In this document: one piece after another, positions 273 through 40,564 of the stretch
Position numbering within the stretch: position 1 is the first letter of the stretch
How the letters are laid out: each line of letters begins with the position of its first letter
Translations under genes and position numbers: made by a program
Notes under the pieces: generated by a model
Database searches by the model: none
What the model was told of the DNA's origin: nothing
What the model saw: the letters and a program-made list of their open reading frames with translations, nothing else
Assembly: GCA_937923605.1 (NCBI GenBank)
Contig: CALDTY010000002.1
Span: 1 to 64,000 of the forward strand
From: Candidatus Absconditabacterales bacterium
GTDB lineage: Bacteria; Patescibacteriota; Gracilibacteria; Absconditabacterales; Absconditicoccaceae
Reading direction: 5' to 3'
Length of the DNA stretch: 64,000 nt

Positions 273-3200
273 TTATCCCCTAGAAAATTCTTGAGATGCA
301 TCTTCAGATATATTTTTTTCTTCTTTTGTAAAAATTATATGTGGTCATCATGACTTTCTAGCCTCTAGGACACCATTTTCCTCAAATGTGTAATATCATT
401 GTCATTCCATATATAATTTTAATGAAAAATCTTCCCACTTCTGTGAATTATAGGTTTCTTGATTAATAACATCTTCCCTGTACGTATACATATACGTCAT
501 AACATCATCTACGATACGTCTTTCTTGAAAATCTACTCATAAATCATCAAATCATGGGATTTTTTGTTTGGCAGCAGTAACATCAACTGATTCTTTACTT
601 TTTGTAAACGTCATTTTGTGTGGTGGATTCGATGTGTCATCAGTAGAAAAAATAACGGTTTCTCCTTCTCTAGTCATCGTATATCACATCTGTGAATATA
701 TACGATCAGCATCTTCTACAAACTCATTAAAATTTTGATCATTAACTGAAAATCATGTTTCAAGTAAGGTTCCATCCTGATTGAATATATTATTCTGAGA
801 CATTTGAAGATCATATTTTTTTCAGAATGTATGCCTCACTGAGGTAGGATGAAGACAAAATCATACTGCAATAACATATCCCAAGCATTTTTCTCGAGTC
901 AGACCTGCTTTCTTCTTTTGTTTTTCATCATCCCGATCAATTTCTGATGTTCCATATAAGGAAACTAAAATTTCTGGAAATGCTTCCGCAAATTCTTCTC
1001 ATGCTTCTTGCATAGTTTGCACTGAAGCTAAAGAGATTTTTTCTTGAAGTTTTCAAGCATCTTTTCAAATATTGGACGGCTTACTAACATCTACTTTTCT
1101 ATGCTTAAAAGGATTCAAAAATGCATCTTTATTTTGAAGTGCTCTTGCAATATTTCACATCGTTCATGGCTTTTTTGCAAATTTGCCTACTGCACTAGAG
1201 ATTCCTCTTCATAAACCAATTATTGCACCAGAAGTGACAGCTCAAATTACGTATTCTTTTCATGTTGCTGCAAGGTACTGTTTAGTAGAAATATCTCATC
1301 TTGCGAGCAATTGCTCTAATGTAGGATTATCATAATCAACTGGACCATTATCTAGGCCATTTGCAATTTTAGTCGTCACATATTGTGTTACCCTTCATCA
1401 TACAATTCAAGCTGCAGTTGATGCAGCGATCATTGGTATTAAACCTCGTCCTCAAGTCGCAATCATTACTAAAACAGCTGCAATCAATGCTCATAACATT
1501 GGAATTCATTGTGTTATTAGGAATTTTTTCAATGTAGCAGGATCTGTATTTTCTTTATCTAAAATTTTATCAAGTACTGTATCAAATTCTCATTTTGGCT
1601 CCAGACTCTTTAATAATCTTTTATATCATAATATACTTTCTTGTAATTTTTTATCTTCGTCGGAAATTATATCACCTCAAAAAGTTTCATTGTAAGATAG
1701 GAATTTTTCAGCACATGCTATACTTTCAGATAAACTATTTCTAATGTCTTCTATAGAATTACGAAGTTCAAGCGCTTGTGGAATGATGTTATTTTGTAAT
1801 GAATACGTAAAATCCATTCATTTTTGTACTCATTGTAGACTTAACGCAAAAGGGGTAAGTTTCATCTGTACTAATCAAAGTGTATTATGTAACGAAGAAA
1901 GATTTTCATCGTTACGAACGATTGCTCATACTGCATTTCTAGAGGCATTGACGATATGGATTGTACTATTTGGTATAGTACGAACAGTATATTCATCGTT
2001 GGTATCTCTTAGTAAATATCCATCATCATCATCTTTCAAAATGCAAGTTGAACCATGTTCAAGAACTCTTCACTTAGGTAAAAATACATATTTTTTAGTA
2101 AATGTTGAGTAGGTAAATTTTGTATACTCATATTCTGTAACCAAAAGGTTTTTGAATCATCAACCAGGAAATCTAACTGAACACCAAATATATCATTGGT
2201 TCATTAATTGTTTTTCATCAGGAGTTATGTTCAAAGACGAAATACTTAAATCACTTAATGGAACAAAATTTGCAGGGGTATATTCCTCACTAGTTTTCCA
2301 AGCTTGAATTTGATCAACAACATCATTAAGCTCCGACATTTTATTTACTTCTTGTGTTAGCATTTCAGAATCATCATTCGCTATGAGATATTCAATATAT
2401 TTTGTATATTTTTCATTTTCTCATAAGTCATCATTTATTTCAAATGTAGATCAATCTCATGTATATTTGATGCCTGTTCTCAATGTAGTAAGTCCTGGAA
2501 AATAATCGTCTTTCGTCTCTTCTTTCACTACTCAAGAAGGAAGAAGATCAAAAAGAACATATTGTTCAAGTATAGATTTTTCAATAACTCAAGACTCTAC
2601 ACCCTTTCTGAGATAATTATAAAATTTACTAGCAACAATTGTCTTCTTTGAGAAAATAATCATCTTCTCTTCTTCTGTCTTTTTATATGCGTCCATCAGA
2701 TCTATCTGGGCACAAATAATTTCTGTGCTTATCTCTTCTCACAAACTTGTATAATCCAAGCTTCCCATTAGGTTGAAAATTTTCGCAATTTGTAAATAAG
2801 GAAATACATATGTACTAACTCCAGATTGACTATTAGCAATCCATTTGGTTAGAAAATTTGCTCATGTAGTATGTTTTAATAATGATTTATATTGGTCAAG
2901 ATACATCATATAGTGATCTTTGACTCTATTTTGCATCTGTTTTTCAAGTCATACAAGTTGAGTATTAATCACTGAAGTTTCTTGAGTAATAGTTTTTTCA
3001 TACTCAGCATATCTATAGCTTTTTTCAATGAGGACCTGAAGCTTTATTTTTTCATTATTCTCAGATTGTATCGCAATTTTTTTATCAACGTCATCTTCAG
3101 TAAGTCAGTATTTTTCCATCTTTCAATTTGTTTTCGCTCATTCTCGTTGTTTTATTAGCATTCGATGCTTTGCGTACTTAAAATATGGATCTGACCTACC

Positions 3201-3647: not shown

Positions 3648-3837
3648 AAGAGAAAACTTAATGTAAAGATATTCTTAAGTATATTTGAAAGAGATGAATT
3701 CTGCAAATTTCACAGAGTATACTCTTCTTAAAATGATCTTGTGAAACATGTATATTCATCGAATCAAAATGCTTGATAATAAGATATATATGCATAGCCT
3801 TAATAATATTCTCTTTAGTTTTGTCATACTAACACAG

Positions 3838-6372
3838 ATGTTTAAAAGAATTCTTTTATATCTAAGCCTACTTTCACTACTCTCAGCTAGCTTTGCAAAT
3901 GAAAAGTACTCATTTGAAAAAGCCGAATCTCTAAAGCCATTAATTGATCGAAGAGATTACAGTCCTTCAAGTTTTCAAGAAGCACAACAAGATAAGAAAC
4001 CAATTTTTATGTTACTCACTGCTCCATCTTGGTGTTATCGATGTCAGGTTTATGAAAGTGAAGAATATCTTTTTGATCCTGAGATCATAGAATTACTTAA
4101 TACTAAGACAATTCCCGTGTATGTAGATGCTGATATAAGACAAGATCTCACTAGAAAATATCTAGAATGATGATGGCCATCAACAACAGTCATGACTCCT
4201 GATGGAAGCCGTATTTATTGATACTCTGGACCAAGACCAATCGCAAACATGAAACAAAATATTGAAAATGCTTGGTCACATGTACAAACTTTATGAACAT
4301 GATGAATTCTTCCTGAAGTTTATAGGACAAGCTCAGTACCAGAACTTTCAGAACAATCACTTACTAATATTCAGAATAATGTATCTCAAGTAGCTGTATC
4401 ATGATTTGACAAACAATACGGCGGTTTTTGAACATCGAAGAAGTTTCCACAATGAAGGATATTAAAATACTTTGTAGACCAGTATAACCTAACAAAAGAA
4501 TCTAATCGAATTGAGATGGTACAACTTACTCTAGAACAACAATATACTTCTCCACAAGAGTTAAGCACAAATTACAACCTTTATGATCCTATTGAATGAT
4601 GATTTCATAGATACTGAACTACAAGAAATCGAGACCCTCCTCATTATGAAAAAATGCTATACGACAATGTTAGATTACTTGATGCATATCATAACTATTG
4701 GAGAACATGACTCGATGATCCATATGTAAATGAAGTTTTAGCTTGAACATGGAAATATTTGATCAATGATTATTATGATTCTAAGAACTGATGATTTTTT
4801 GCTAATACTGATGTAAATTGAGAAGCTGCATATTACGCACAAAACCCAAGACCACTACCAAAAGCAAGAGTTGAGGAAACAAAATATACTGATCGGAATG
4901 CAGATGCGCTTGTCTCCTTGTTGTCAATAAGATCTAGACAAGATATAGACATGCAATTTCAAACTCCAACATGACAATATACAGTTACACTTAATCAATT
5001 AGACAAGATAATTATTGATACTCTACATTTTCTAGATAAAGAAATTATGACTAAACAATGAGCATATCACTATCAACAACCTGATGGCAATACATGAGTA
5101 AGATGAAGTATAATTGATCAATGATTACTTGCACTGGCATATATTCACGCATACGAAATATATGGAACAAATTCATATCTCAAAAGTGCTCGCTCCCTTG
5201 TGGATTATTCTTTAGAAAATTTATACGATTGGTATGGATGATGATTTTTTGAAAGAAATAGTCCTGACAGACATCTTTATGCACTGAACGATTTTGTAGA
5301 TCTAAGTAAACCTATAGCAGAAAATGGAATCTTTGCTTATGCACTTACTAAACTAACAATCCTTACACAAGATAAAAACTATCATATTGCTGCGCATGAT
5401 ACCCTCGCTTGGATGTCATCACAAGCACGTCAATGATGGCTAGATAAATGATACTATAACATGATTTGAGCGAAAGCATTTCAAGATGCATGATTATTAG
5501 AGACACTTCCCAGCAATATTCAACTGATAAGAGATAAAAGACAAGCAACATCTCGACTAAATGGATACATTGATGGTTCTGCATATAGAAATACATTTGC
5601 CTTATCGTGAGTTTGATTAGAATCATATACACATAGATGATTTTGGCCCTTTGCGCTACTAGCATTTTTAGCAGGAATGTTATCTTTCTTATCTCCTTGT
5701 ACTCTACCTGTATTGCCAGCTTATGTAGCAAACATTCTACGTAACAAAACATGATCAAACCGAAAAAATATAATATGATTCATGATCTGACTTATATGAA
5801 TATTCACTATCTTATGATTGTCAGCCACTGGTATTTGAAAATTCTTTCATGGTTCGATAGAAATTCTTGTGCCATTAATATGAATTGTGTTAATTATATT
5901 TTGACTACTTCTTATGCTAGGGGAAAATTTTTCATGGTTTACACAACGAATACCTTCTTACGCACCTTCCTCAAGTTCAAGTATACTTCTTGGCGCAAGT
6001 ATGTGAATAACATGGACACCATGTGTATGACCGATATTACTAAGTATTCTTGCCGTAGCATGACTGCAATCTCAAATACGACAAGGAGCAACTTTATTAG
6101 TGCTTTATGGACTTTGATTAGCCCTGCCATTATTGATTGTTGGTTTCTTTTATGAGCGTATTCAACATCTTAAACGATGATTTCGGTTAGCCTGAAAGCC
6201 GGTTCAATTCGCAGGACAAACTATTCATAGCAATACACTCATTGCTTGATGACTCTTATTATGAGTTTGATTACTTATTGTTTTTGGTGGTTTAGATATT
6301 ATTGCAATGCGGTGAACAAAGGCATTTGGTAATAGTCGACTAGGAGAGTTAGAGAGAACTTTATTACAATAA
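3838..6372 (+). CDS. Thioredoxin-like / DUF255 (YyaL, SSP411) protein fused to a C-terminal CcdA/DsbD membrane domain
   Basis: 844 aa with UGA = Gly. ATG 3838 is preferred over in-frame ATG 3748 because it begins a good signal peptide (MFKRILLYLSLLSLLSASFA). A thioredoxin-like domain follows with a CYRC pair and the DUF255-type sequence GGWPSTTVMTPDG, then an (alpha/alpha)-barrel-like middle region to about residue 600. The last ~230 residues are a polytopic CcdA/DsbD-type domain with both signature cysteine motifs, SFLSPCTLPVLPAYVANI and ITWTPCVGPILLSIL. CcdA proteins pass electrons from cytoplasmic thioredoxin across the membrane. Having the electron conduit and an extracytoplasmic Trx-like domain in one chain suggests a self-contained reductase of surface or secreted substrates. 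It converges on the 2411-aa gene, with 5 bases between the stops. Confidence 0.88.
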
Positions 6373-6377
6373 ATTAT

Positions 6378-9300
6378 TTAACTCAACTTAACTGTCTTTG
6401 ATTTAAGTCATAAATCTTGGAGCATATTATATGATTGCAAATCTTCAAATTTCGCATGTGCAAATACCATATCTAGAGGATTGAGATCAGCAATAAATGC
6501 ATCAGGAGATACTCATAACTCTAATGAGAAATTATTAATATATTGAGTGGTATTATTTTCATGAGGTGGCGCATACGTTGAAATGTATTCACTAATTGTG
6601 TCATAAGCACCGTACATTTTACTATTACCCTGTTGTATATTTACTATTTTTGCTATGAGAGCAATAACTCATTCTCATGGCGAAGAAAAACGAGTAAAAC
6701 GTTCACTAGAAATTCTCTTTCATCAAAATTTTGTGTCCTGTAAATTTCATGGATTAAAATTTCTCACTGCTGGAGTTGCTCAATACTTACGAATTGCTTC
6801 AGTCCTGGAAATTTTCTTCATTTGTACACTTATATCCATATTTAAAAAATCAAAACGTTTTGAGACTAAATCATTAGTTTTCTTCTCTTTACTTGAACTC
6901 TTTTTTTTCTTCTTTTTCCTTTCCTTTATTTCTTCCTCTGTTTTCTCCTCTTCTACTTTTTCTTCTTTAGATTCGATCTCTTGTTTAGAATCTAACGCAA
7001 TATCTTCATCTGATAACTCATCTTCATCATCATCCAATAAAGATCATCAAACTAGTCATAAAAGAATTCCATAAAGTCTTTTGTTTCTAAGAAATTTTGC
7101 TATCTCGTTTCTTGCATAATTTAGGACACTGTCTGATATATTTTCACCTTTTCAATAATTGTCCATAACTACCTTTGCACTATGGTAATCGCTATCTTGT
7201 GTCAATTGCATATAGTATTCGTTTTCATAATGATTCATCATGTTTCGTGCATCGCTTTCAGTAACATTTTCCCAAAGTCAAAATTCTGGAACAGTAAAAA
7301 CTCATGAATTTTGCAAATCTATACTAGTTCAATCTTCAAGCTCGAAACTAAATCCATTATTATCAATCAATGTTCACTTTCTTTCACTCCTATCACTTCA
7401 AGCAGAAGAATCAGAGAATTCAAACACGAGTGAAATACTTCAATCTTTTTGTTTTTGAAACATATACACTTCATTATTAGCTCAATATAGTGCAATAGTA
7501 CTTCATTGATTTAGATTATCAAATTTGTTATTTAGAGAATGTAGAGACTCGCCAGATAATTCTTGGTTCGTTTGACCAAATTTCTTTTCTATCAATCACA
7601 TTGTATGTGGAGACCACACAAGCAAATTCGTAATATTGTATTTTTCAGAAACCTTCAACATTTTCTTATTATGATTTTCTTTTTGCTCTTCAGTCAAATT
7701 TGACCAAGTCTTAGTAAAAAACGCTATGTCTTTAGAACTTATTCAATTAGCTACTCATTGAAGCACTAATGGATATTTAGTAGAATCTATATCATTCAAA
7801 ATAGTTAAGTCTCAATTTTGCAACATTAGTCAGTCAAATATCTTTTTCATGTCTTTCCTGATTTTTTTTCATACATGAGATGTAGATGATTCGTTATTGT
7901 ACATCATGCATAACATATGTAGTTTATCATAAGAAATACCTCATGGTAAGTTATAATTTCCTGCTAACTCGGAAATTCATGTCTGTTTTGCCAAGTCAAT
8001 TCATACCTTAAAATTTGATTCATAAACCTTTTCATATGAATAATATTGATCATTTCGTTTTTGTTTATGATCTTGAGCGATTGCTTCGTACAATTCAAAC
8101 CATTTTTTTGAACCCAGTTCAACATCCATAAAATCTTTATCTAAAATATTAGTAGTAGAATCTTGAGTACCTTTCTCCTGAGCTACCTCTGATGATTCCT
8201 TTCACTTTTTATTATTCTCTGGTCATTTTATTTCTACAATTTGTACACATCTATTGTCCGGTTTACCCGTTCTATCTTCCATTTTCTTTGCAGTATGGTC
8301 ACTTATCACATCTACAGCATCAGAAGGAGATTTTCATGAAATATGTTTCCACAACAAGTCTGTTTCCAAGCCGTAAGGTTCACCATAATTTTCACTGAAT
8401 CAATCTGATCAAATAACAAATTTATCACCTGGATCTAGTTTTATACGTTGTCATACAGTCACAGATCACTGCTTTCATGATATTGAATTTGTTACCACAT
8501 TTTCATTTGGTGGAGGCAATGATTCATCTACAGAAATATGTTTAACTTTTCCATTTTTATCAAACACTACCAGTTTACAATCTCAGGCATATGCGTAATC
8601 TAAATAACTTGATCCTCACTCATTGAGTACTTTCGTATACATAAAACATGCTCATGCATCCTTATTACTAATCTCTTTTTTCATACGCTTTTGAGCTTTC
8701 TTTATTGCTCAACGAATATCATTTGGCGCATTCTTTATTTCTTCAGCTATAATTTGTGCGGCGATATCTCATCATTCATATCATCCCATTCCATCAATAG
8801 CAGCAAATACTCAGTTATCTGGGTCTGATACTAATCTATCCTCATTTAATGGTTTGTAATTAATTCATTCATCTGTATGTCATGAACTAATTAGACTATC
8901 ATTCTCTTGTTGCTCTAACTTACCATCCTGAATAACTTCTCAGTTTGTAGATGATGGTTTTCAATAATCCAGACTTGATGTTCAAGAGACATGTTCGTTC
9001 TTATCGAATCATCAAACCTTCTCAATTTCAGTCATCTTAATTTGTTTCCAAACTTCTCAATCATTTTCAGTTCGTTTCACTTTTAGTTCATCTCATACAA
9101 CTTCAAAGACTTCTGCTTCAGTTTTTACCTGTGTACCACTGCGTGGAATTAACACTTTATCTCAGATAGAGAATCAAGGGTTATAAGATTCATGTTTAGA
9201 AAAGTGTGATTTTCTAGCCAATTTGATGATCTTATTTCTTACTGGGGCATATAATAATGCAGGTGAGGAATATTTTGACATCATCCATACATCCAGTTCA

Positions 9301-12300
9301 AATTTTCAATATCATTGACTAATTTTACTTTGCACCTGAGTCACAAAATCATTGAATTGTATAGATCATCCATCAAAATCTGTAATATTCTGTAGATCTG
9401 GATATGCTTGGACTCATATCTGTAGATCATCGAGTGTTTTTATCTTCTGTAATGAAGTATATTTTTTCCATTTCAATGTTAACCAACATGGAATATTAAA
9501 CATACCTGCAGATGTTCAAACTCTATCTCATGACAAAGTGATAACTTCAACAGAATACTTTGATGAAAACGATGAGAATCAAGAGATTAAAGAGTTATGA
9601 AAGTTCCGCATAGCATCTACAAGTCATCTTATAGGTCAACTCTCATTCACAATCAGGTTATAAGTTCAATACGAAATCTCTTCCATTTTTTGGTCCAATG
9701 CTTGTTGAACCTCCATAGAAGGATCTACTTCCAAAATAGAACTTAACGTATTCAATGATTCTGTTGCTTGTTCGACGTTTATGGTTGATGAAATACCCTG
9801 TATATAAGAGATTTTATCTGCGTCTGTTTCAATTCAACCATTATTTTCTACTCAGCTATACATGACAGAAATAGAAACTGTTCAACGTCAAGAACCTATT
9901 TCTCGTTGTTGTGATTGCTTATTATAAGATCATCAAATTGATTCCATATGCATATCAAAATCCTTTGGCTGTCAATCATAAGCAAGATTCATTACACGAG
10001 CATTTCACTGCCCAGAAAATTCATAATGTCATATTTTTCACTTTTTGATGCGAAGTGCCTTTGATAAAGTATAACATCATCAAAGATAATCTCACAACAA
10101 TAATTCAACAGAAGTATCTTTTAATTCATCTCAAAATTCATGTCGAAATCTTTGTCCATATGATTTAGCTACTCTACCAAGACTTTCATCAGAAATTCAT
10201 CAAAAGAAATTTTGCTTCTTACTTACCATCTTCACAAACCAATGATTGGGTTGTTGAGTTTGTAGAACATTGAATCTAGTCTTCAAAATCTTTGATGCAT
10301 GACCAAATCAAATTGTTCACATTGATCACCAAATCCAATCAGATCAAAAATGTTTAATAAATTCCTTTCAAGTCATTTGCCCATCTAGATATTTCTCAAT
10401 ATCGGTTTTAATAGCATATTCTGGTGCGATTTCACCGATCGTAGCTGCCGTTAATCTATATCATATTGCTCATCATAATCATCATAAGATTCATGCTCAA
10501 ATTAGTCATCATACTCCCGTGGACGCTAATGCAACTGCAAGCACAATTGCTCACAGCAATGGTAATCAATTAGTAATAAACCAACTTTTGAGAGTATTAT
10601 CACTAAATTCTCATGATAATAAACTCTCAAAAATCTTATATAAATTTGCCTTTTTAACATCATTAACAGATGTTAGATTTTTTGGTATTATCATATCTAC
10701 AAGAATTGTCATTCATTTGATATAATTCCTCATTTCAGTTCCAGCTGACGTTGATAATCATGTTCATAATAATCATTCCATTTCAGATATATATCATTTA
10801 AGTGTTTGAGCCTGAGAAAGTAGAGATCAATAATTGTTTTGCATAAATCATAAAATCTGATCCTTTGCCATCGACACAACTTCAGGGGTTGGTTTTCATT
10901 TAGCAAGTTGAGCAAGAGGAAATAATCACTCATTGAGTGTATTTCATATATTTTGATATAAGTCCATCGCTGGATGGTTTTTAAACTGTTCAACTGCAGC
11001 TGTTTCGGTCAACTGTCTTGCTTTCATATCTTTTGCATCTATTAATTTCCATTCTTGATCTCATTTTCTATATTCTTGTATAGATTGATATTCAATTCAT
11101 TGTTTCTGCTCCCTAGCTACACATACAGTCTGCCATGAAGGCCTTAAAATTCAATCTTTATCTTGTTGTATATGAGGATCAAAAACTCGCTTTTCTCATT
11201 GGTTCAAAACATCTTGTGGAGGTTCTTTTATGTCGATCATATCCACAAAACGAATTCAAATTCAAGGAACTAAAATTTTCTTAAATTTTATTTGAATTTC
11301 AGCATCGGTTAATCAAGGTATTTCTTCTTTTACTTCTACAATTACTCAGGCATTTCCAACTTTAGTAGTAGATTTTGTATAAGGTCTATTAAGATTTTTA
11401 ATATTTCTAATAGTGGTTATATCATCATGAGACAAATCTGCATGAATCGAAATTCATCCTCACATAAATTGTTCTCGTACACTAGCATCTGGGCAAGCTG
11501 CTTGAATCTTTTCGACCGACTCTGTTCGTTCTCAAGTTTGAGATTCCACTTGATCTTCAGATTCTAGATACACTCAACTGATGATCGCATACGATTCTGA
11601 ATTTGGTTTAGTTTGTTTTAAATACTCTCTCAAAGCAACAACAGTTTGCACAAATTGCTCTCAAAATGTCATTAAAATGTCTGACGAGTATCTTGTTGCC
11701 AAATACACAAGGTAAGATTCTTGTTCCTGTAAATCTTTTCATTGATAATGTTGAATTCGAATCAATTTATCTTCATCAGCCCTTACCTTTTCAATATACT
11801 GCAGATGTAAATCCTTATGAACTCATTTTAGGTTGTGAAGGTTTTGTAGTAATCATCATGTAAAACGAATTTCTAATTCACCTTCTCAATTCTCAACAAC
11901 TTCTTTTGTCCCAAAAATATCTTTATATTTTTCTACCTGTATCCATTCTTCTGCAGTCAACTCTTGTTCTGCAACCAACAATCATCCGTGTCATCCATAT
12001 AACATAGTATTCTTAAGGTAAGTCCAAATTCTATGCATAAGTCATCACTCTTTTATGTTTTTTAATAATGCATCAAGTGAAGTTTCAACTAACTCATGTA
12101 CTAATCAAATCTCTCATTCTATATCTAGTAAGGTGATCTTAGTCTCATTGATCGTAAGTAATGAACTATCGTCTTCTACACTTCATTCAAAATAAGTCAC
12201 AAGATCATCTAAATCGCTATGATGCTTTTTATCCAAAATACTCTTATTGTACTTAGTATATTTATAAGATTGAGCATGTTTTTGTTGAAACAATAACTGC

Positions 12301-13613
12301 AAAAACGAACGAAACAACGATCCATCTTTTTTTCATTCTAAACTTTCCAAAAAATCTTCTCTTTTTTTTGATGAAGATAACTTGCTACGTCAAAAAACTT
12401 TTTTAAATTCTTCTTTATTTATAATATTATCCCCATCGTCTACCTTTTCTAACAAAGACTTATTCTTCTTTTCTATTGACTTATTTGTGTACTCAGAATT
12501 AAATTTAGCATAGGCATCTTCTTGCATAGTCACAAAAGATGCTTCACTGAAATCCTCTCAAGATTTTTTATTAAGAAAATTAGCGTAACTAAACACTTGA
12601 TATTTTCCAGATACATCTTTTTTGTTAAGAAGGATATTATTTGACAGTATTAGTAAATTACCATGATGATCCTTCTTAAAATCAGTGCTATAATCAATCA
12701 TAATTTCATATCAAGCATCCGATACGTTTTGGAAGGATCAATCAATATATGCAGTATTAAAGATTTGATCTTTATCCATGTCTGACCTTAGATAAGCTGA
12801 TGATAAGATATGCTGAATGTCGCGGGCACGAATTTCAGTATCATATAAACCATATTTTTTATTTAGCTCATATTCATAATCTATTCATGGGAAATATAAA
12901 TCAATTTCATTCTTTTCTAGTTTAGTAAATCATCAAAATGAATAACTTTTTGTTTCAAGTGAGTTTCACTTTAATGAAACTTTTTGTCTTGATAGATCCA
13001 ATAAGACATAGAATGCTTTTGATTTTTTTCTATCTCAAAGATATTCTCATAAAATTTTGTTTACACGTCATTTGGCGAATGTTTTATATGCAATCTTCTC
13101 CTTCCAATCTAGTTTTCACATAATAGACTCATGTATAAATCATGGGAAGTCTAATGCATTTGGAAAGGAATTTAAATTTAGAAAATTCTTATGCAATCAG
13201 TCAATTCATTCCTCAAGTCCAGTATAAATACGATCTAGATCTAACTTATCTTTATATTTTTGAAAAAAAGAGTCTTTCATCAGCATTGACGAAAGTTCAT
13301 TATATAATGCATCAAAATGAGATCAGATGCTTCATAGTGATTCAATAGTCTCTAATCAATGTTCTGTTTCATATAATCTCACAATTATCTCTTGTTCAGG
13401 TTCAGTTAAATCACTTGCTCATTGTTGTATATTGTTTCGTTCCTTCTCAATAATAGGCAAAAACGGTTTTAATAAAGATGATTCATCTAATGATCATGCA
13501 AATGTTATTAGCTCATCCTTTTCCCATGATGTAGATAAATTCAAAAGATCTTTATATCATCACAAATTATCAGCATCCTCAATTCTATTATCTATATTGC
13601 CATTATAGGTCAT
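6378..13613 (-). CDS. Giant 2411-aa protein: PPM/PP2C phosphatase domain and phage-virion-like C-terminal domain
   Basis: One frame runs 7236 bases without UAA or UAG; start ATG 13613 and stop 6378 are in phase. The first ~1000 residues are charged and of unknown type. Residues ~1010-1050 are a hydrophobic glycine-rich hairpin (LGAIVLAVALASTGVGGLIG). A PPM-type Ser/Thr phosphatase domain lies at ~1585-1795: NEDR, FAAIDGMGGYEGG, GSDGFSEN and PDNRCVQIVEI match its metal-binding motifs. A weak membrane segment at ~2178-2191 precedes an acidic then lysine-rich stretch (~2193-2250). The last ~120 residues (RNFNPGNL, then a stretch with FSSPGEGVIAL and YAPPHENNTTQYI) match a domain of phage virion proteins (RGIRNNNPGNI type). 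A role in cell-surface signalling or envelope interaction is inference. Confidence 0.88.
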
Positions 13614-13630
13614 AATACAATTTTAAAAAA

Positions 13631-13912
13631 TTAAATTCAAAGTAATAAATCATCTAATCATTCTTGTTCTTCTTTTCTAGATTTAATCTCTTGTATTCTA
13701 ACATACTTAAGCACTTCGTATGATTGTAATAATTCTCATTTAGCAAAAGAATTTTCTGTTAATCTAGCTATTTTTAATAATCACTGCATACAAGTATCTA
13801 ACACTTCCTCAGTAATCTGACATTTTCTAATCAGTAATAAAAAAGTTGAAGCCATAGTACAGTATGGTTTAATTTTTGTAAATACCTCAATAAGAATCAC
13901 TTTTTTTTCCAT
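13631..13912 (-). CDS. Hypothetical 93-aa protein upstream of the giant gene
   Basis: The frame starts MEKKVILIEVF and ends EGLDDLLLGI, with three to four UGA-coded glycines. It is predicted to be mostly helical with no membrane segment. It lies 17 bases upstream of the 2411-aa gene, so the two are very likely one transcription unit; a terminator separates it from the acyltransferase gene upstream. No family recognised. Confidence 0.7.
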
Positions 13913-15325: not shown

Positions 15326-16906
15326 ATGAATATCGAATTCAAACCACTTATTGATTTCTATGAAAAAGGAAATAATGGAAATATCCAAGTCAAAAATCTT
15401 GTTAATGGAGAATGGACCTCTACACGGGAGACAAGTAAGATTATATCTCCTTTAAATGGAAATCAAATCTTTACAGTCCCTGAAACTCACTTAGATGAAA
15501 CTGATCCATTTGCTCAAGGGTTAAAGGATACTCCTCAACATGGACTTCATAATCCATTGAGAAACGTGCATAGGTACAAATCTCTATCACAAGTATTCTT
15601 CAATGCCGCTGTTTATTTAGATACTGAAGCCGGTCTCAAATACTTTTCATTCCTCGTTCAAATGTGTATGCCAAAATCATATAAACAGTGCGAAGGTGAA
15701 GTAATTGTGACGAGACAGTTTTTGAAAAACTATGGTGGAGATAGAGGAAGATTTTTAGCAAAAGGATTCACATCACCTGGAGATCATGATGGACAACAAC
15801 CTCATGGATACAGATGGCCTTTTGGAGCTACTGTAAACATTGACCCTTTTAATTTTCCTATTGAAATACCTGTTTTACAAACAGCTGGATCTTTACTAAC
15901 AGGAAATCGTCCTCTAGTTAAAGTTGATAGCAAGGTTGCAATCGTCATGTATGAATTTATTCGTCTTTTGATTGCATGTGGTCTAGATCCACATGACTTA
16001 GATTTTATCAACTGCTCTGGCAAGACTATGGGTGAATTCTTAGTGAAAAATGCAGATCATATTGAAATGTGTCAATTCACAGGAAGTACAGGAGTAGCAG
16101 ATTTTGTTACATCAACTCTACAGGGAAGAATAAGAAGAGAAGATGCAGGCTTAGACTGGAAAATTCTTGGTCCTGACATTCCTCATAAAGGAATGCAGAA
16201 AAAGATTACACAGCAATGCGACCAAGATGCAAATGCAGCATCAGGGCAAAAATGCTCTGCTCAGTCATTAGTCTTTATACATAGAAATTGGTTAAAGACT
16301 GATATTTTTGAAGACCTAAAGTTTTTGGCTAATCAAAGAACGCTTGAAAATCTGACAGTTGGACCTATCCTCACTTGGACTACAAAACAACTACTAGATC
16401 ATATAGAGAAAGTCCTAGCGATACCTGGTGCAAGATTATTATTTGGTGGAAAGGAATTAGAGAATCATAGTATTCCAAAGGAATATGGAGCAATTAGGCC
16501 AACTGGGATCTTTATACCATATAATCAAATTCTCAAGCATCCAGAGTTAGTTACAACTGAAGTTTTTGCTCCAGTTTGTATTTACACATCTTATCAAGAT
16601 GAATATATTGATGAGATGATTGAGTTTATCAATAATATTGAGCACAAACTTACAGCAGCAATCGTAAGTAATGAACAAGATTTTATTAGAAGAATTGCAA
16701 GTCAAACCAACAATGGAACTACGTATGTAGGACTAAGAGCTAGAACTACTGGCGCTCCACAGAATCACTGGTTTGGACCAAAACATGCTCTGGCAGCTGG
16801 AATCGGCACAGATGAAGCTATTCTAATCACATGGACCTGTCATAGAGAGATTATCAGTGACAAAGCTTTAGTAGATGAAGCTTATGAGTTTGTTGACGTA
16901 ACTTAG
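15326..16906 (+). CDS. ALDH12-type delta-1-pyrroline-5-carboxylate dehydrogenase
   Basis: 526 aa. NAD(P)-dependent oxidation of glutamate semialdehyde/P5C to glutamate, the second step of proline catabolism. The fold is aldehyde dehydrogenase with the catalytic cysteine in ASGQKCSAQS. Stretches such as DHDGQQPHGYRWPFG, PLVKVDSKVAIVM, REDAGLDWKILGPD and TTGAPQNHWFGP match the ALDH12 family, best known from plants and some bacteria, better than the usual PutA-type enzyme. All of its glycines (40 by my count) use GGN codons and none uses UGA, unlike most neighbours. It is monocistronic with a promoter and a strong terminator. No proline dehydrogenase gene lies nearby, so the substrate source is unknown. 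Confidence 0.87.
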   Translation: MNIEFKPLIDFYEKGNNGNIQVKNLVNGEWTSTRETSKIISPLNGNQIFTVPETHLDETDPFAQGLKDTPQHGLHNPLRNVHRYKSLSQVFFNAAVYLDTEAGLKYFSFLVQMCMPKSYKQCEGEVIVTRQFLKNYGGDRGRFLAKGFTSPGDHDGQQPHGYRWPFGATVNIDPFNFPIEIPVLQTAGSLLTGNRPLVKVDSKVAIVMYEFIRLLIACGLDPHDLDFINCSGKTMGEFLVKNADHIEMCQFTGSTGVADFVTSTLQGRIRREDAGLDWKILGPDIPHKGMQKKITQQCDQDANAASGQKCSAQSLVFIHRNWLKTDIFEDLKFLANQRTLENLTVGPILTWTTKQLLDHIEKVLAIPGARLLFGGKELENHSIPKEYGAIRPTGIFIPYNQILKHPELVTTEVFAPVCIYTSYQDEYIDEMIEFINNIEHKLTAAIVSNEQDFIRRIASQTNNGTTYVGLRARTTGAPQNHWFGPKHALAAGIGTDEAILITWTCHREIISDKALVDEAYEFVDVT

Positions 16907-17014: not shown

Positions 17015-17797
17015 CTAATCTTCATCTATAAAGCCAAATTCAATTAGCTTATTTCTGAGTTCCCCATCTGTGTTTTTATTCACAGTTATTAATTGATGGT
17101 TATCAGGAACTTCTAATGTTCCTTCTTTCAGTTCATTTGCAATGTCATCACTAGCTCTTCCTGTACCACTGATAACGATAGTTGGCCATCCATTTTTAAT
17201 TGATCTCTCAATCTCTTTTCTCGTTATCCCTCCACCATTCCATGAAATGGTACCTATCGCTTCAAAAGCAGCGTACTTCTTCCAGTTATCCATCATTTGA
17301 AAGTAAATATCCAAATCACCATCCCAGTCCATTCCTTTCTCTGGACCATCTTGGATAAGTAATATTCCTGACATTGATGGATTTGGAATAGTACCAGACT
17401 CATCAAGCACCAAAGTAGATTCTCCCTGTAAAGATAAGTTATCTGTTCTAGGAGTAGTACCAAGTGCAACGCATGTTGGATTTTGATTCGCAATAAGACC
17501 AGGGATATCAGTCACCATTGGATCTAGAGTACCATCCTTATTCACAGATCTTGTTCCTCCTGACCAAAGTAATCCAGAATATCCTTTAAACTCTCTAGAA
17601 AAAAAATCTAACATTTCTTGTTTATCATCATCTGACATTCCTTTACAACCACCTGTAATTCTTATAGCTACTTTTTTACCAGCGCTAGTTCCTAAAAGAG
17701 CAAATGTTGATGGGATTTGATCTTTATGTACATCCATAATCATTAAATTCGTTTTGCGCCCTTGGGCGGAAACGATTTTCGCATTTTGTTTAGTCAT
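17015..17797 (-). CDS. SLOG-like (prokaryotic LSDAT / TRPM-SLOG type) protein, copy 1
   Basis: 260 aa, no UGA codons. A Rossmann-like fold is indicated by the glycine motifs RITGGCKGM (residues ~47-55), LLWSGGTRSV (~76-85) and VISGTGRASDDIANEL near the C-terminus. These are the nucleotide- or ligand-binding signatures of the SLOG/LOG-like superfamily, closest in pattern to prokaryotic LSDAT proteins related to the TRPM ligand-sensing domain. Known relatives bind nucleotide-derived signals, often next to an effector domain; here the domain stands alone. It lies 29 bases downstream of a paralogue of the same length and probably forms an operon with it. Ligand unknown. Confidence 0.65.
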   Translation of the reverse strand: MTKQNAKIVSAQGRKTNLMIMDVHKDQIPSTFALLGTSAGKKVAIRITGGCKGMSDDDKQEMLDFFSREFKGYSGLLWSGGTRSVNKDGTLDPMVTDIPGLIANQNPTCVALGTTPRTDNLSLQGESTLVLDESGTIPNPSMSGILLIQDGPEKGMDWDGDLDIYFQMMDNWKKYAAFEAIGTISWNGGGITRKEIERSIKNGWPTIVISGTGRASDDIANELKEGTLEVPDNHQLITVNKNTDGELRNKLIEFGFIDED

Positions 17798-17826: not shown

Positions 17827-18609
17827 TTAAGCATGTTTGTTTTGTGAATTACGTATCACATTAAATTGTGGCTTAATTGCACCAAAAGAAATAAGTGCTG
17901 AAGTTAAAGAAGATACAGTATTATCACAAACAAAGACATTTTTATATGAACGTAAAAATGTTTTATTATTTGCAAATAAATCTGCAGTTCTGCCACTTCC
18001 ATTAATTAGTAAGATATTAAAGCCCTTTTTTGCTGCAATTTCAATCTCATTTTTAGTAGTCTCACCACCATTATAAACCACTGTAAGATTTGGTATGCTA
18101 GCAAACTGATCTAGATCAGCCATAATCTGATGACAAGCTTTCCATTCAATATCCCATTTTGAATTTTCATCAACATTCTTTTGAATGACTAATGCAATAT
18201 CCTGACATGGGTGAATAATAGTACTATACTTGTCATCTTTACTTACAACAATCCCTTGATCTGTAAAAAGTAATGTGTCAGTCTTAGGTACAACTCCTAA
18301 TAAAATTGTTTCTGGACTTAGTTCCTTTATCAAATATGGAATTTCAGTGATTGAAGCTTTGATTTTAGATGTATCTTTCATTATCATTCTAGTTCCTCCA
18401 AATAGTATACTACCTTTGTAAGTACTAAATGATGATAACAATACTTCATTCATACCAAGAGCATCCTCATTTGACATAAATCCACATCCTCCAGTAAATC
18501 TGGTAAGGAATTTATCTGTAGCAGTTGTAAGTAAAAGAGATATCTTTGTAGAAATCTCATCCTCGTTCTGAACAAACAGACGAGGCACAATATTCGTTTG
18601 TTTATTCAT
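17827..18609 (-). CDS. SLOG-like (prokaryotic LSDAT / TRPM-SLOG type) protein, copy 2
   Basis: 260 aa, no UGA codons. It is a diverged paralogue of the downstream gene with the same ordered motifs: RFTGGCGFM, ILFGGTRMI and LINGSGRTADLFANN. Two of the conserved glycines or acidic residues differ from copy 1 (GSGRTADLF against GTGRASDDI), so the two may bind different ligands or form a heteromer in which one site is altered (inference). The start is ATG 18609, preceded by a good promoter at 18635-18662. Confidence 0.65.
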   Translation of the reverse strand: MNKQTNIVPRLFVQNEDEISTKISLLLTTATDKFLTRFTGGCGFMSNEDALGMNEVLLSSFSTYKGSILFGGTRMIMKDTSKIKASITEIPYLIKELSPETILLGVVPKTDTLLFTDQGIVVSKDDKYSTIIHPCQDIALVIQKNVDENSKWDIEWKACHQIMADLDQFASIPNLTVVYNGGETTKNEIEIAAKKGFNILLINGSGRTADLFANNKTFLRSYKNVFVCDNTVSSLTSALISFGAIKPQFNVIRNSQNKHA

Positions 18610-19304: not shown

Positions 19305-19892
19305 ATGATTACACAACAACTAAACAATGTCTTTAGTTTATTTAATGACCATGTCTTAGGTGAACATCTTGGTCAAAAAGCGTTTCATTCATTTGATGCT
19401 GCGCCAGGGGCAAATGTCGAAAAATTAACTAAAGATTCCCCAATTAGTTCAATTATTTCAAATAATGAAAACAATCTATGCTCTCTGTTACCAGAAAATG
19501 TGAGATACAAAACAGTAATAGAAAAAGGAGATTGCCCATTAGTAAGAATTAGTTTCGCTAGAGATACAAGTCATAACCCAATCGTTATTCTTAAACTGTA
19601 TCATAATATTCAACAGCATAAACAAATTTTTGTCTATGACGCTTGTACCAAAAGATATGAAGTTGATCAGTTTTCTGAACTTGGAAAAGACATAAGTACA
19701 CAAAATTTACTTCCTGAGGTTAGAAGCTCTCTTTCTAGAATTTCTTCAACAATTAATATGTTGATTGCTAAGAAAAAACAATCAGGAAATAGAAGTGACA
19801 CTGCTCTTGCAAAAATTACAAGATATGAACTTGTAACTGAACTAAGAAAACAACAAAAAATTAAAATTGAAAAAGTTTTAGAAGAAGTTTAA
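19305..19892 (+). CDS. Hypothetical 195-aa protein, UGA-free
   Basis: Starts MITQQLNNVFSLF. The N-terminal half is mixed alpha/beta (YKTVIEKGDCPLVRISFA, then a hydrophobic strand and FVYDACTKRYEV); the C-terminal ~60 residues are lysine-rich and helical. No signal peptide or membrane segment, and I recognise no family. It has its own terminator and no UGA codon, like the neighbouring ALDH and SLOG genes. Confidence 0.7.
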   Translation: MITQQLNNVFSLFNDHVLGEHLGQKAFHSFDAAPGANVEKLTKDSPISSIISNNENNLCSLLPENVRYKTVIEKGDCPLVRISFARDTSHNPIVILKLYHNIQQHKQIFVYDACTKRYEVDQFSELGKDISTQNLLPEVRSSLSRISSTINMLIAKKKQSGNRSDTALAKITRYELVTELRKQQKIKIEKVLEEV

Positions 19893-25108: not shown

Positions 25109-26515
25109 TTATCCACTTATACGAAGTGGTATTGAATCTTCATATTTAAAAGCAAATTCTAGTTCAAACATGTAATCATTCGTAAATCCTGGATACTTGT
25201 TGCTAATTTCAATTTCGTTAAATTTATTCTCATCAGATATAAACTCACAGTATACTGAACTTTCAGAAAATCTTTTTAATTTTGGCTGTTCATCAGTATT
25301 GAGTTTATAAAATTGAGCTCTCAGAAATCGATCTTTAGTTGCGTCAATGATAAATATACCCTTTCGGTTAATTCCATCCAATACAGAGTACATCATCACA
25401 TTTGCTCCGAAAAATCTTTCTCCTAAATCAATCAATCCTAACTCTATATCATAAATAATATTTATGAACTTATGTATTCCAATTGGCAGCTGGAAAAAAT
25501 ATGATTTAAAATCAATTTTATTTGAATCAATTACTTTTTGAGACACCATTTTTCCCATTTTTGACGTATCAACTATTTTAGATATGTTTTCACCTTGTCG
25601 CTTAAGTTGTGTATCATATACTACAAACTCTACAGATCCGTCAATAGAGATATAACTAACGAGAAATCTATCCTTAGAAAGGACAAAAAGATCTATCACC
25701 TTTTTGCAAACTGTAGAATAAAAATCATTAGCAGCAAGATTATATATCATTATTTCACTGAATACCTCATCTTGAACATTGTCCAGTATTAATATTCTAT
25801 AATTTCCTGTCCACGTATTCTTTTCATAGAAAGCTTGATTAATAACTTTTTCAGATAAATCATACGGTCCAGATGTATATAGATATCTATTTATCTGATA
25901 GATGATAGTAGTTTCATAATCTATAGATACTTTTTTTAGAGAAGGCTGACTATAATGATATATATCATCTCCTATACTTAAAATAATAGTCTGTTCAGAT
26001 TGATTATGTTCTGTAATTTTAACAACCTGATCACTTTCCAATCTGATAAAAGGAGAACCAGTATCAATTGCTAATTTTCTGTACAACGCATACATAGATA
26101 AAATTCTATATCTCTCTATTTCTATCGTTCCTTCTTGATAAATGAAAATGTGATCAGAATGTTTAAATAAACCAGTGATTATGAAATTCATGTATTGTTT
26201 TCTATTTGGATCGTTATCACCACATTCTGACTTCATTGGACATCCTAAGTAGAAAATCTTCTCTTTAAGAAGATCATAAATTAGAATCATGGTTCCCCAT
26301 TTTAATTCAACACTGGAATTTATTGGATTGAGTACAATATAGAATATTTGTTGCTCAAAATCAAATAATGATGCTCTATAGTCAATAAATAGATTAGATT
26401 CCAATAATGAGAAATCATGTTTAAATTTATTATTAGAATTATTACCACTAAATAATTCTTCAATTATTCTTCTAGACTGTTGATAGTCTAATTTTTGTTC
26501 TGTGTCTGATGACAT
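25109..26515 (-). CDS. Hypothetical 468-aa protein, UGA-free
   Basis: Starts MSSDTEQKLDYQQSRRIIEE and then has many alternating strand-like segments (FEQQIFYIVLNP, DDIYHYSQPS, RFLVSYISIDGSVEFVVYDT), which may indicate a beta-propeller-like or other all-beta fold; this is only an impression. No signal peptide or membrane segment. No UGA codon. Monocistronic with a terminator. No family recognised. Confidence 0.7.
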   Translation of the reverse strand: MSSDTEQKLDYQQSRRIIEELFSGNNSNNKFKHDFSLLESNLFIDYRASLFDFEQQIFYIVLNPINSSVELKWGTMILIYDLLKEKIFYLGCPMKSECGDNDPNRKQYMNFIITGLFKHSDHIFIYQEGTIEIERYRILSMYALYRKLAIDTGSPFIRLESDQVVKITEHNQSEQTIILSIGDDIYHYSQPSLKKVSIDYETTIIYQINRYLYTSGPYDLSEKVINQAFYEKNTWTGNYRILILDNVQDEVFSEIMIYNLAANDFYSTVCKKVIDLFVLSKDRFLVSYISIDGSVEFVVYDTQLKRQGENISKIVDTSKMGKMVSQKVIDSNKIDFKSYFFQLPIGIHKFINIIYDIELGLIDLGERFFGANVMMYSVLDGINRKGIFIIDATKDRFLRAQFYKLNTDEQPKLKRFSESSVYCEFISDENKFNEIEISNKYPGFTNDYMFELEFAFKYEDSIPLRISG

Positions 26516-29321: not shown

Positions 29322-32300
29322 TTATCAAATTTGTATAGCATCAAAATCTGGTACTGCAAAATTCTCTCTGCTCTTTATATCATTAGGAAGTTTAGAATTC
29401 TCTTTTCTAAGAGGGTATTTATATTTTTTGAGCGGTATTTTAATCTTTTCTTCAACTGTATAAATTGCTGCTGCGTCTACCTTCTTTCTTTTTAATAAAA
29501 CTCACATCTTTTTCTTTAAACGTAGAGCAATATATTTAACAATATCTTCCTGAGATATTAGATCATCTCATATATTATCTAATATCATTCATGTCAATTT
29601 ATTCTCAGGCTTGAAAAATAAATTTGCTCAATTAGTATTATTTCATACTTGATAAAGAGATAAGGTTAAGTCAAAAGATTGTTCTCATCAAACTTTTTCT
29701 ATATCTAGATTTACTAATTCATTCATAATAATTCAAAGAATCTTCTCATTCATAAATCAACTCAATTCTTGTGGGATATTTCACTCCTTTAAAATACGAG
29801 CTAATTCACCTCACTTAATTTTAATCTCAGAGTCACTCTTTGTATACTCTCACTTTTGATCAGATCATTTTATACGTCTCCTTTCTTGAGAACCTAGAAG
29901 ATTAGATTTTTTTGGACTATTAATTCAATTTACTAATCTCTTGCGATAATCTTCAATTGCTTGAGCATAAATTCTAAAATGATATCTAAATCTTGCTGCA
30001 AAGTTTTCATCAATCCCTAATTCATTCAGAAGTTTTTCTTCAAAATTTGAAAATGGAAGTTTCGCAGGAGGCCCTTGAAATGTTGTTGTTCATATAGAAT
30101 CCGGAAATGCTCTATATACATTTACATCATCGGTTTTCTTGTCTCAAAACACCATTTTTAAAACTTCTTTTTGTTTTTCTTGGTTGGCTTTCTTGAGTCA
30201 AACAGCTCAAGTATTATCATACGAAACATATGTTTCTAAACGAACAGGAGTTCAAATATCATTCGCAAAAGTTGTTTCTAATTTTCTGAAAAAATCGGTT
30301 CAAGAATTTATCATCTCTCTTCTTAATCCACCATCAATATAAATCTCTCTTTGTTCGTAAGACTTTTTTTCTTTGTTCAAATACACTAAACTTACTGCAT
30401 ATGCGGCAATTCCTACTTCTGGATTATTTACAGGCACTATGTTCTTAAAAATTAATTCTGAATCATCTTCTAAGAAAATTTTTGTTCATATTTTTCATCA
30501 AGATAATATCTCATTTGCAATGTAACTTTCGTCGATTTCATTTCTACTTAAAATAATTTCTGGAACTGTATGTAAGACTGAATTGATTCATTTTTCTAGA
30601 TCTAATCCAGAACAATCTATTACTAAATCTAGCTTTAACTCATTATCATTTCTTCAATTTCATAAAAGATATTCACTCTGCTGAGTAGTTAAATCTGAAG
30701 TATTATTAATTCTACCATCTAGTCATAGAAGTATCGTTCAATTCGATCTTTTTTTCAAATACTCAGAACGTGCATTAACAGAGAATATTTTTACGTCAGT
30801 ATCTATATCTTTTTCAGACTCCATAAATGGTGCAAGTAAACTATACCTAGGTCTATCACTATTTAAGCTCTCTTTTGTGTAATTAGATCATATCCAAAAT
30901 GTCTTAGGCAACTGAATTGTCTGTCTTGGTGTATTGGATCCATGTACATAAAGATGCTCCAATCAAACTTTGGCTGTATCTCATTTTCAGATAAATCAAA
31001 CATTTGCTCATCTTAGAATTTCATGTAGATCAATCGATGGGTTTTTTGCCATACGTATAAAATCCAATCATGTCATGTATCTTGGAAAATTTTCCAACTG
31101 TCTAATTGGCACTATATTTGGATCTCTATAATCTTTTGATGCTTTGTATTCATTGAATTCTTTTTTAAGAGTTGTTTCATTTAATCTATTTTCATCAATA
31201 ATATCCAGTGTTTCTTTATTTAATCATGAAAATCATCTCTTTTGAGGTCATAAACCAGTCAAATAAGACATATCATTTGCTTCAATTTCTATTATCGAGC
31301 CATCGTTTTTATTCTTAATATAAAATGTATATCATTCTCATTGCTTTCATTCATGAGTTATGAGTTCTGCATCCATCAGATAATTTACACTGGAAAATTT
31401 TGATAGTGCTTCAAATCATCGATCATTATCTCCAGAGTACATACTAGAGTGCATATCAGCCTCTCATAGGATACTAAACATGCCAGGATGATTGATTGAT
31501 CATGGATATGTAGGATATGTAGGATACATAGGATTTGTAGTAGTAGCTGCTCTATTACGTGAGTTAGTCATAAATCATTTTTCAGCACTTCATCCTATAT
31601 TAAAACTTCATCAAAAATAATTTTCTTTACCAATATACAGAGTATCATCTATTGAATCACCATATAACCGACTCTCAGTTTCCGCCATAATTCATCAATT
31701 GATTCATAGTCAAACACGAAGTTTAGATAAAGATATCTTGTTTCAATTTTCTTTTATACGACTCCACAATTGTTTACTTCTCTGCCTTGCAAGACGAAGA
31801 GCTTCATCATGAAATAATCTTCTGAGAGTAGGTTCTCTAGCGATAGAACTCATGAATGATGTTAATTGTCTATGATGTATATTTCCACTCATTGATGTTT
31901 CCGTCTCATGTTTAAATCTATTACTTGGAATATGCATAGATTTGAATTTTTCTGACAAGATCGGATTTGCATTAATTATCTTCATGAGTCCATTCATTTC
32001 TTTGAGTCTCATAATTCTTTTGCGTTGAACTTTAGTTCTATCTTGCTCTAGGAATTGGTACATTGCTTCTTCAAGCTTAGCTGCAGTTTCTGATGATCAT
32101 TGTAATGTGGCATAAAGCACTTCAAGAATATCATCTATATGTTCATATCAAACCGCATCTGTTTCTAAGTCATAATGTAAAGATATGAATTTTTCGATAT
32201 CTATATCAGATTCGTTATATCATAATTTATTTTCCATTACTAATTTGAATAAATTTCTTATGTCGTCATCTTTTATTAATTCCTGTAAACTTGTTTTTAG

Positions 32301-39523: not shown

Positions 39524-40564
39524 CTACTTTAATCTAAATCTAATGGGCAAAGTATATCTCACCCTAACTTTTCTTCCCTGCTGCATACCTGGAATCCAGA
39601 TCGGCATGTTCTTTACAGTGTTCATTGCTTGTGCCCCACATCCAGCCCCAATATCTCTTGCAATATTAAGTTCTGAAATTGAACCATCTTCATTTACGAC
39701 AAATTGTATAATCACATCTCCTTGTATCCCATTCTCTCTAGCAATTACAGGATATTTCAGATGTTTGTAAATATACTTTAGCATTGCTTCTTTCGAGCAA
39801 ATATACAAATCATTCTTATTGAGTCCTTGTGTTTCGCATTCAGACATAAATCGTGGCATTGATGCTACAACTTTATAGATTTCTTTCTCTTCATCATCTT
39901 TGTTTGTAATCTCTGGCAAATCTATTGGTTTAGGAGGAATAGGTTGACCTATACCATCAGATGTTCCAATGTCTGATATACTCTCAGAAGGAGGTTCTAT
40001 TACATCATCTGGATCAATAGTTTCATCTATCAAATCTGGCTCAACTATGTCATCTGGATTCACTGTTTCTACTTCAGGCTCTGTCGGCGGAGGAGGCGGA
40101 GGTATATTCTTTTGCGGAGGATCCTGAGTTGTTCTAATAATCATGGTTGTATCAATCACTGGATCTCCTGTTTCATATATTTCTACATAAGCATTTGTCT
40201 CTATATTAAATGCTGAAAGTACAGCTATTAATATTAAACTAAATGAAAATAAGAAACTTATTCTTGTAAACTTCAACGAAGAGATTTTCTCTCTCTTATT
40301 CTGTACTGTAAATGTTGTAGCAAATGGGAATAAAATAAATTTCATAATACTCCTCATCAACACAACTATCCTAGAATTTCCAACTGGAAATAAATGCTCA
40401 AATTTATTGTAATCTGTTAATGAAGACAGATACGTGTTACTGATTTCGGGACGCTTTTTTTTCATGTACACAATATAGATACATAAGATCAATGCAATTA
40501 TGCCCAATGTGAGCAAAAAATGCATAAACGACATCCCACTGGTAATGTTTGTTAATGGATTCAT
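39524..40564 (-). CDS. Energy transducer TonB, Bacteroidota type
   Basis: 346 aa, no UGA. Two N-terminal membrane segments (FLLTLGIIALILCIYIVYM and FLFSFSLILIAVLSAF) are followed by a periplasmic proline-rich linker (KNIPPPPPPTEPE). A TonB C-terminal domain closes it: YPVIARENGIQGDVIIQFVV, GAGCGAQAMNTVKNMPIWIP and GRKVRVRYTLPIRF. The MPRFMSEC motif and the VIARENG signature are hallmarks of Bacteroidota TonB. TonB transmits proton-motive force to outer-membrane receptors, and no TonB receptor or ExbBD gene is visible here. CPR bacteria of this kind are not expected to have a typical outer membrane, so acquisition from a Bacteroidota host or prey is the simplest reading. Confidence 0.88.
   Translation of the reverse strand: MNPLTNITSGMSFMHFLLTLGIIALILCIYIVYMKKKRPEISNTYLSSLTDYNKFEHLFPVGNSRIVVLMRSIMKFILFPFATTFTVQNKREKISSLKFTRISFLFSFSLILIAVLSAFNIETNAYVEIYETGDPVIDTTMIIRTTQDPPQKNIPPPPPPTEPEVETVNPDDIVEPDLIDETIDPDDVIEPPSESISDIGTSDGIGQPIPPKPIDLPEITNKDDEEKEIYKVVASMPRFMSECETQGLNKNDLYICSKEAMLKYIYKHLKYPVIARENGIQGDVIIQFVVNEDGSISELNIARDIGAGCGAQAMNTVKNMPIWIPGMQQGRKVRVRYTLPIRFRLK

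Follow-up and report, generated by a model that had tools for sequence, protein, structure and literature searches.

The question raised by this locus is what a protein of 2411 residues might do that joins a PPM phosphatase to a C-terminal domain of phage type. The window, i.e., the whole stretch of 64,000 nucleotides analysed here, comes from contig CALDTY010000002.1 of a Candidatus Absconditabacterales bacterium (GCA_937923605.1), and the protein is referred to as P0001 (Table 1). An earlier note, made from the sequence alone, had pointed out the combination and suggested contact with another cell. We propose that P0001 is a giant modular effector that is delivered into another cell, to which we assign a probability of roughly one half. 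The proposal starts from features read in the sequence: a single frame, two domains with catalytic residues, a core shared with other giants, variable tips in these relatives, a small upstream partner gene, and no signal peptide. From them, we infer delivery, its route, the chaperone role of the partner, the targets, and the enzymatic activity of P0001.

Reading frame and enzyme domains of P0001

Gracilibacteria and Absconditabacteria use genetic code 25, in which TGA encodes Gly. With the standard bacterial code (table 11), the region is full of stops and has no long open reading frame (ORF). With code 25, window positions 6378-13613(-) form one frame of 2,411 codons that holds both the PPM and the C-terminal domain. 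TGA is used for 157 of the 204 Gly codons of P0001, evenly distributed from end to end, and a run of 2,411 codons without TAA or TAG has a chance of ~10^-72 at this composition. The remaining two frames of the strand contain 124 and 149 stops. Because of the single open frame, the even TGA usage, and the ~10^-72 chance, a frame-fusion artefact is very unlikely, and the uninterrupted frame described before is borne out. Likewise, the sequencing error that the earlier note had named as a possible refutation is not supported, as the core, the partner operon, and the size match those of relatives in independent genomes. These points already largely refute an artefact of assembly or frame that joins unrelated genes, and we give it almost no weight; no support for it was found, and the own genome is a draft assembly (1.31 Mb, 34 contigs, 83.5% complete), in which codon and neighbour checks cover selected stretches.

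The PPM domain is matched by NCBIfam Stp1 (E = 3.7e-8) and Pfam PP2C_2 (E = 1.7e-4), both under the curated cut-offs. All four metal-coordinating Asp residues in the NED, DGMGG, SDG, and DN motifs are kept (D1592, D1607, D1737, and D1786). An AlphaFold2 model from the single sequence is of low confidence (predicted local distance difference test, pLDDT, 47) and serves as support only. Its top folds in the PDB are PstP and tPphA (E ~1e-6), and the PPM-fold Legionella effectors Lem3 and SidD appear lower in the list. A search of the own taxonomic family with the PPM domain alone gave nothing outside the own genome. The domain resembles PstP/Stp1-type phosphatases in the four metal-binding Asp residues and in a predicted fold closest to PstP and tPphA. 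Unlike them, it is internal to a giant protein, stays below the Pfam and NCBIfam cut-offs, and occurs in a genome in which no match to Pkinase, i.e., no eukaryotic-type (Hanks-type) kinase, was detected at 83.5% completeness. P0001 thus carries a PPM domain with the metal-site residues and is a predicted phosphatase, in agreement with the metal motifs listed in the earlier note.

The C-terminal domain had been described as phage-virion-like and as an envelope-interacting module. Its homology to phage proteins holds, with matches to the PHROG endolysin and virion lysozyme families (E = 4.5e-18) and to the PDB entries 9vvp (Gp29) and 7q47 (Enc34 endolysin; E ~7e-7). For a model built from 48 sequences (pLDDT 82), 7q47 is the sole significant PDB match (E = 2.3e-4). 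Structure prediction of both regions, at low confidence for the PPM domain, gave folds in keeping with the domains first noticed. A restriction to virions does not hold, as domains of this type are likewise present in endolysins of phages and in proteins from three further genomes of the own family; together with the own genome, these make up the 4 bearers among 288 genomes of the class. The envelope-interacting module is a real domain, but the description was incomplete, as it is predicted to be a wall-cutting enzyme with a catalytic Glu. In the Enc34 endolysin, Glu131 is catalytic, and Trp79 and Tyr95 are likewise conserved (PMC8943055). Like that enzyme (PHA02564; PDB 7q47), the P0001 domain has the RN.NPGN motif (RNFNPGN, residues 2284-2290), the catalytic Glu, an equivalent of Tyr95 (Y2358), and a predicted mostly helical fold. 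Unlike it, the domain has Tyr in place of Trp79 and forms the C-terminus of a 2411-residue bacterial protein, not a stand-alone lysin. Hence, we regard the "virion-like" end as a predicted wall hydrolase. In G025, the Enc34-type domain is preceded by a weak peptidoglycan-binding match; G025c, considered as a further bearer of the domain, was rejected on alignment. Pae87 (PMC8972805) was considered as a homologue of the C-terminal domain and was dropped when 7q47 turned out to be the endolysin of Enc34.

As the C-terminal domain is homologous to internal virion lysozymes and endolysins of phages, P0001 could be a polyvalent protein of an integrated or decayed phage or conjugative element, packaged and injected with the DNA. 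Lysozyme, Zeta, zincin, and similar domains are found together in polyvalent proteins; like the P0001 family, these proteins are giant multi-enzyme chains in which a lysozyme is joined to effectors acting in the cytoplasm and in which Zeta and zincin domains recur (PMC5512222). Yet P0001 lies among chromosomal genes and not among modules of phages or integrative and conjugative elements, a Pfam LPD domain was not found in it, and it has a core and a partner gene of its own. The window neighbours named by profiles are of chromosomal type (a DsbH-DsbD fusion, aldehyde dehydrogenase, and DnaG), family relatives adjoin genes identified by eye as alanyl-tRNA synthetase, enolase, purF, and other housekeeping genes, and the core is nearly restricted to one bacterial class. 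We consider such an origin very improbable.

Hairpin core and exchange of tips

With the whole of P0001, a search of GTDB contigs gave no relative; residues 860-1180 can be aligned to giants from further genera. The profile of this core matches 18 of the 288 class genomes and, in a phylum-wide sample, 12 of 380 genomes, 9 of these in the same class. About 20 complete or near-complete members with 1,124 to 3,078 residues were obtained, the smallest of which is encoded next to P0001 (Table 1). A signal peptide or N-terminal hydrophobic segment is absent in every member, most have a single hairpin, and the hairpin is followed in the family by an E..EE..E helix. Judged by these profile matches, P0001 belongs to a family of giants that extends across the class, with a shared hairpin core and differing enzyme tips. 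This family was previously unrecognised. Another giant ORF of the window (1836 residues, 29322-34832) is outside the core family and has no convincing Pfam, NCBIfam, or PHROG match.

These relatives alter several points of the earlier note. The membrane hairpin is confirmed as a hydrophobic stretch (residues ~1008-1052) but is not an isolated anchor, as it sits inside the conserved core. The fusion is real, but the pairing is not unique in the sense proposed, as core, hairpin, and partner are common to the family. Contact with another cell is also the interpretation that we favour, but a display of the modules outside by the hairpin does not follow from the topology, because two hydrophobic helices leave both termini cytoplasmic unless the whole chain is exported. 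The Pfam and NCBIfam scans of P0001 gave no convincing match outside the PPM domain and no recognised trafficking or secretion domain, and the PHROG scan matched solely the lysozyme and PPM parts. A likeness of the hairpin to AopB (3wxx, E = 0.97) was taken as chance. In G285, beta-rich modules similar to the one of P0001 precede the calcineurin-like tip (by eye).

An envelope-anchored giant, similar to the membrane proteins proposed for Vampirococcus, that serves attachment and local wall remodelling without transfer into a partner cell would be compatible with part of these data. Giant membrane proteins were reported in this related predator (PMC8080830), and the muralytic domain could remodel the wall of the producer or of the host. 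The Vampirococcus lugosii giants are very large like P0001, come from a related predatory lineage of the candidate phyla radiation, and were associated with host interaction by the authors. Unlike P0001, they are described as membrane or surface proteins with binding domains; they were compared by description. Neither a Sec signal nor a sortase motif was found in P0001, though the same contig encodes LPQTG surface proteins, and a PPM phosphatase requires phosphoproteins and normally acts in the cytoplasm. An envelope anchor is, in our estimate, quite unlikely.

The variety of tips in the family speaks for the delivered effector that we prefer. By profile, the core-family tips include Zeta toxin (E = 4.7e-14), cNMP-binding (E = 2.9e-29), GGDEF (E = 7.7e-13), HD, and a weak FHA match. 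Giants that are linked to a partner gene and mostly lack the core carry RelA_SpoT, HATPase_c, adenosine deaminase (1.4e-26), Metallophos, and Peptidase_Mx1 tips. The metallophosphatase, nucleotidyltransferase, zincin, and RelA-like tips of G285, G226, G254, G037, G081, G119, G251, and G032 were assigned by eye, and profile support is limited to the tips listed with E-values.

The giants of the sister species G119 and G134 (same genus) share one locus, which adjoins an alanyl-tRNA synthetase-like gene. They are 91% identical over residues 1-2178, after which the identity drops to ~20% and the tips are unrelated. The last 34 residues of G119 duplicate the linker that precedes the G134 tip, as though a new tip had entered ahead of the old one and displaced it. 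G175 and G226 are 59% identical over ~950 residues and have unrelated tips thereafter, and identical tip types recur on different trunks. A lone RelA-like fragment is found downstream of G037, and a fragment of the C-terminal part of G254 downstream of G254 itself. Three consecutive RelA/SpoT genes were reported in a published Gracilibacteria genome (PMC6851277). Five giants (G052, G130, G140, G175, and G241; stretches L010, L048, L041, L047, and L045) share one tip of ~830 residues, and a conserved homologous gene of ~200-216 codons overlaps their 3' ends by 4 bp. By its appearance, this gene could provide immunity or a co-factor linked to the tip. The comparisons show that tips are exchanged within the family. 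Between trunk and tip, a recurrent module of ~85-100 residues (..ILEAH..G..L...Q.R.....L......VR..L..G..G), which resembles a pre-toxin module, was seen in G032, G037, G045, G046, L186, L187, L189, L198, L200, and L221.

Polymorphic toxin systems (Zhang et al. 2012, PMC3482391) share with the family a conserved trunk with variable C-terminal enzyme modules, a Zeta-toxin tip, abrupt tip replacement in sister species, orphan tip fragments, and, in five members, a tip-linked downstream gene. The family differs from these systems in lacking a known trafficking domain, in the absence of an immunity gene at P0001, and in several tips of signalling or metabolic type.

Partner gene and proposed delivery

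For 15 of the 20 giants, the gene immediately upstream on the same strand encodes a partner of ~93-118 residues, and the two genes often overlap by 4 bp; at P0001, they are separated by 17 bp. In a leave-one-out profile, the P0001 partner scores 35 bits, the best of 1,000 shuffles 11. Such profiles give homology of the partners within the code-25 group and, except for G285, within the standard-code group. The C-terminal motif LD.LL..I is common to partners. Homologues are encoded by 41 of the 49 genomes in the own family, with up to five copies per genome. Most of the 37 partner loci that were read then have a large gene, mostly leaderless, within ~50 bp (usually 600-2,460 residues), and most of these large genes lack the hairpin core. 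The standard-code partner profile matches 200 of the 288 class genomes, which we do not take as the prevalence of the two-gene unit, because many of the matches are one single-copy homologue of ~135 residues that adjoins greA-like genes or, in the own family, VirB2-like pilin genes. In the own genome, the pilin-like gene matches T4SS_pilin (PF18895) with E = 0.0017, below the cut-off; the order of homologue and pilin (Table 1) recurs in several relatives of the family. A link of the partner to a type IV secretion system (T4SS) is suggestive only. The combination of hairpin core and small upstream partner was found in no described system. We infer that P0001 and its partner form a chaperone or adaptor plus polymorphic-effector system.

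VirB4-type ATPases are encoded in 37 of 40 genomes searched (36 above the cut-off), with strong matches in four genomes of the same genus. In Patescibacteria, T4SS are widespread and mostly lack a relaxase, and a co-option for other functions has been suggested (PMC12102498); we found no described cargo for them.

For P0001, the following course of events can be envisaged. The divergent trunk and the conserved hairpin core would carry exchangeable tips, here the PPM phosphatase and the Enc34-type muralytic domain. The 93-residue partner may bind nascent P0001 as a chaperone or secretion adaptor, and the leaderless chain would be exported by a specialised system, most plausibly the relaxase-less T4SS of Patescibacteria. 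The hairpin would then insert in or cross the target membrane, the lysozyme-like domain would open the wall, and the PPM domain would dephosphorylate Ser/Thr phosphoproteins of the recipient. For a muralytic domain there is nothing to cleave in the cytoplasm, and outside it a PPM phosphatase normally lacks substrates. That one leaderless chain carries both is therefore most easily understood if the chain passes from one cytoplasm through the wall into another. The own genome, though incomplete, yielded no eukaryotic-type kinase, which would agree with a foreign substrate of the PPM domain. A lysozyme-plus-effector logic of this kind has been suggested for polyvalent proteins of phages (PMC5512222).

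The strongest rival is a non-secreted scaffold for signalling or enzymatic functions that is tethered to the membrane, with both halves in the cytoplasm, the hairpin as anchor, the tips as sensor outputs, and the partner as assembly factor. The absence of a signal peptide and a hairpin that would hold both ends on one side agree with it, as do GGDEF, HATPase_c, RelA/SpoT, HD, cNMP-binding, PPM, and weakly matched FHA tips and the lack of an immunity gene for P0001. However, a lysozyme-fold domain with a conserved catalytic Glu finds no cytoplasmic substrate, the Zeta toxin, zincin, and adenosine deaminase tips would be unusual as outputs, and orphan tip fragments and abrupt tip replacement are typical of conflict proteins. 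A scaffold is thus somewhat unlikely in our view.

Several observations weigh against a delivered effector. The own genome, at the completeness given above, yields a weak VirB4-type match. Elsewhere in the class, the single-copy partner homologue mostly adjoins greA-like or other genes. A possible EF-hand-like N-terminal motif of many partner-linked genes is not significant in P0001, as 710 of 2,000 shuffles score as high. No close relative of P0001 with a swapped tip was found, so that tip exchange is established for the family and not for P0001, and downstream of P0001 no candidate immunity gene was found. GGDEF, HATPase_c, cNMP-binding, and FHA tips are ordinary signalling outputs, not toxins. 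In the lysozyme-like domain, Y2347 replaces Trp79 of the Enc34 endolysin.

Other bacteria serve Gracilibacteria and their relatives as hosts or as prey. Tentatively, P0001 and its relatives might be the cargo of the Patescibacteria secretion machinery, i.e., class-wide leaderless polymorphic effectors with dedicated small adaptors that breach the wall of the host and alter its phosphorylation or its signalling by second messengers. A partner gene followed by a leaderless giant with exchangeable tips gives, for most genomes of the own family, a set of candidate effectors that can be searched, and an effector family would explain the abundance of giant proteins in such small genomes.

Features and further genes of the contig

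Table 1 Features of P0001, its partner, and related or compositionally distinct genes; positions refer to the window unless a contig is given
Feature	Position	Strand	Basis or remark
Giant ORF P0001, 2411 aa, ATG start	6378..13613	(-)	code 25 translation
N-terminal trunk, residues 1-855	11049..13613	(-)	no relative found; without signal peptide or N-terminal hydrophobic segment
Conserved core, residues 860-1180	10074..11036	(-)	common to giants in 18/288 sampled class genomes
Glycine-rich hydrophobic hairpin, residues ~1008-1052	10458..10592	(-)	sole hydrophobic segment of P0001
Small beta-rich module, SH3/KOW-like by eye, residues ~1476-1533	9015..9188	(-)	sequence reading, without profile confirmation
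PPM/PP2C phosphatase domain, residues 1577-1800	8214..8885	(-)	profiles, metal residues, model fold
Linker with charged low-complexity stretch, residues 2160-2255	6849..7136	(-)	sequence
Enc34-type endolysin (PHA02564, lysozyme-fold) domain, residues 2266-2403	6405..6818	(-)	profile, structure comparison
Glu2390, position of Enc34 catalytic Glu131	6444..6446	(-)	invariant in 48 aligned sequences
Partner gene, 93 aa, 17 bp upstream of P0001, C-terminal motif LDDLL..I	13631..13912	(-)	homologous to other giants' partners
Neighbouring paralogue, 1124 aa	273..3647	(-)	core at its residues 575-841, E = 1e-14; no PPM, no lysozyme domain
Single-copy 139-aa partner homologue and VirB2-like pilin gene (PF18895)	G000 C4, L241:934-1353 and 489-932		homologue directly upstream of pilin
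Genes without TGA	15326-16906, 17015-17797, 17827-18609, 19305-19892, 21631-22500		codon count
Genes without TGA, continued	25109-26515, 39524-40564, 45758-46321, 52573-53640		codon count

Between the two core-family genes, positions 3685-6372 encode a DsbH/DUF255 thioredoxin-like protein fused to a DsbD transmembrane domain; this gene is convergent with P0001 and ends 5 bp from it. At the end of the window (62552-64000 and beyond; G000 C2, L242:2553-12812), a repetitive CGDG..EECDDGN protein of at least 3,419 residues is encoded, with LPQTG in its C-terminus. The adjoining gene of 556 codons (60856-62526) also ends near LPQTG, and both are predicted sortase-type surface proteins.

Nine genes of the contig contain no TGA in ~180 Gly codons, whereas the other contig genes write most Gly as TGA. 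They include an aldehyde dehydrogenase, two LSDAT/SLOG genes, a TonB C-terminal domain, and an ATP-dependent DNA ligase domain, and resemble genes acquired recently from donors with the standard code, which may have been hosts.

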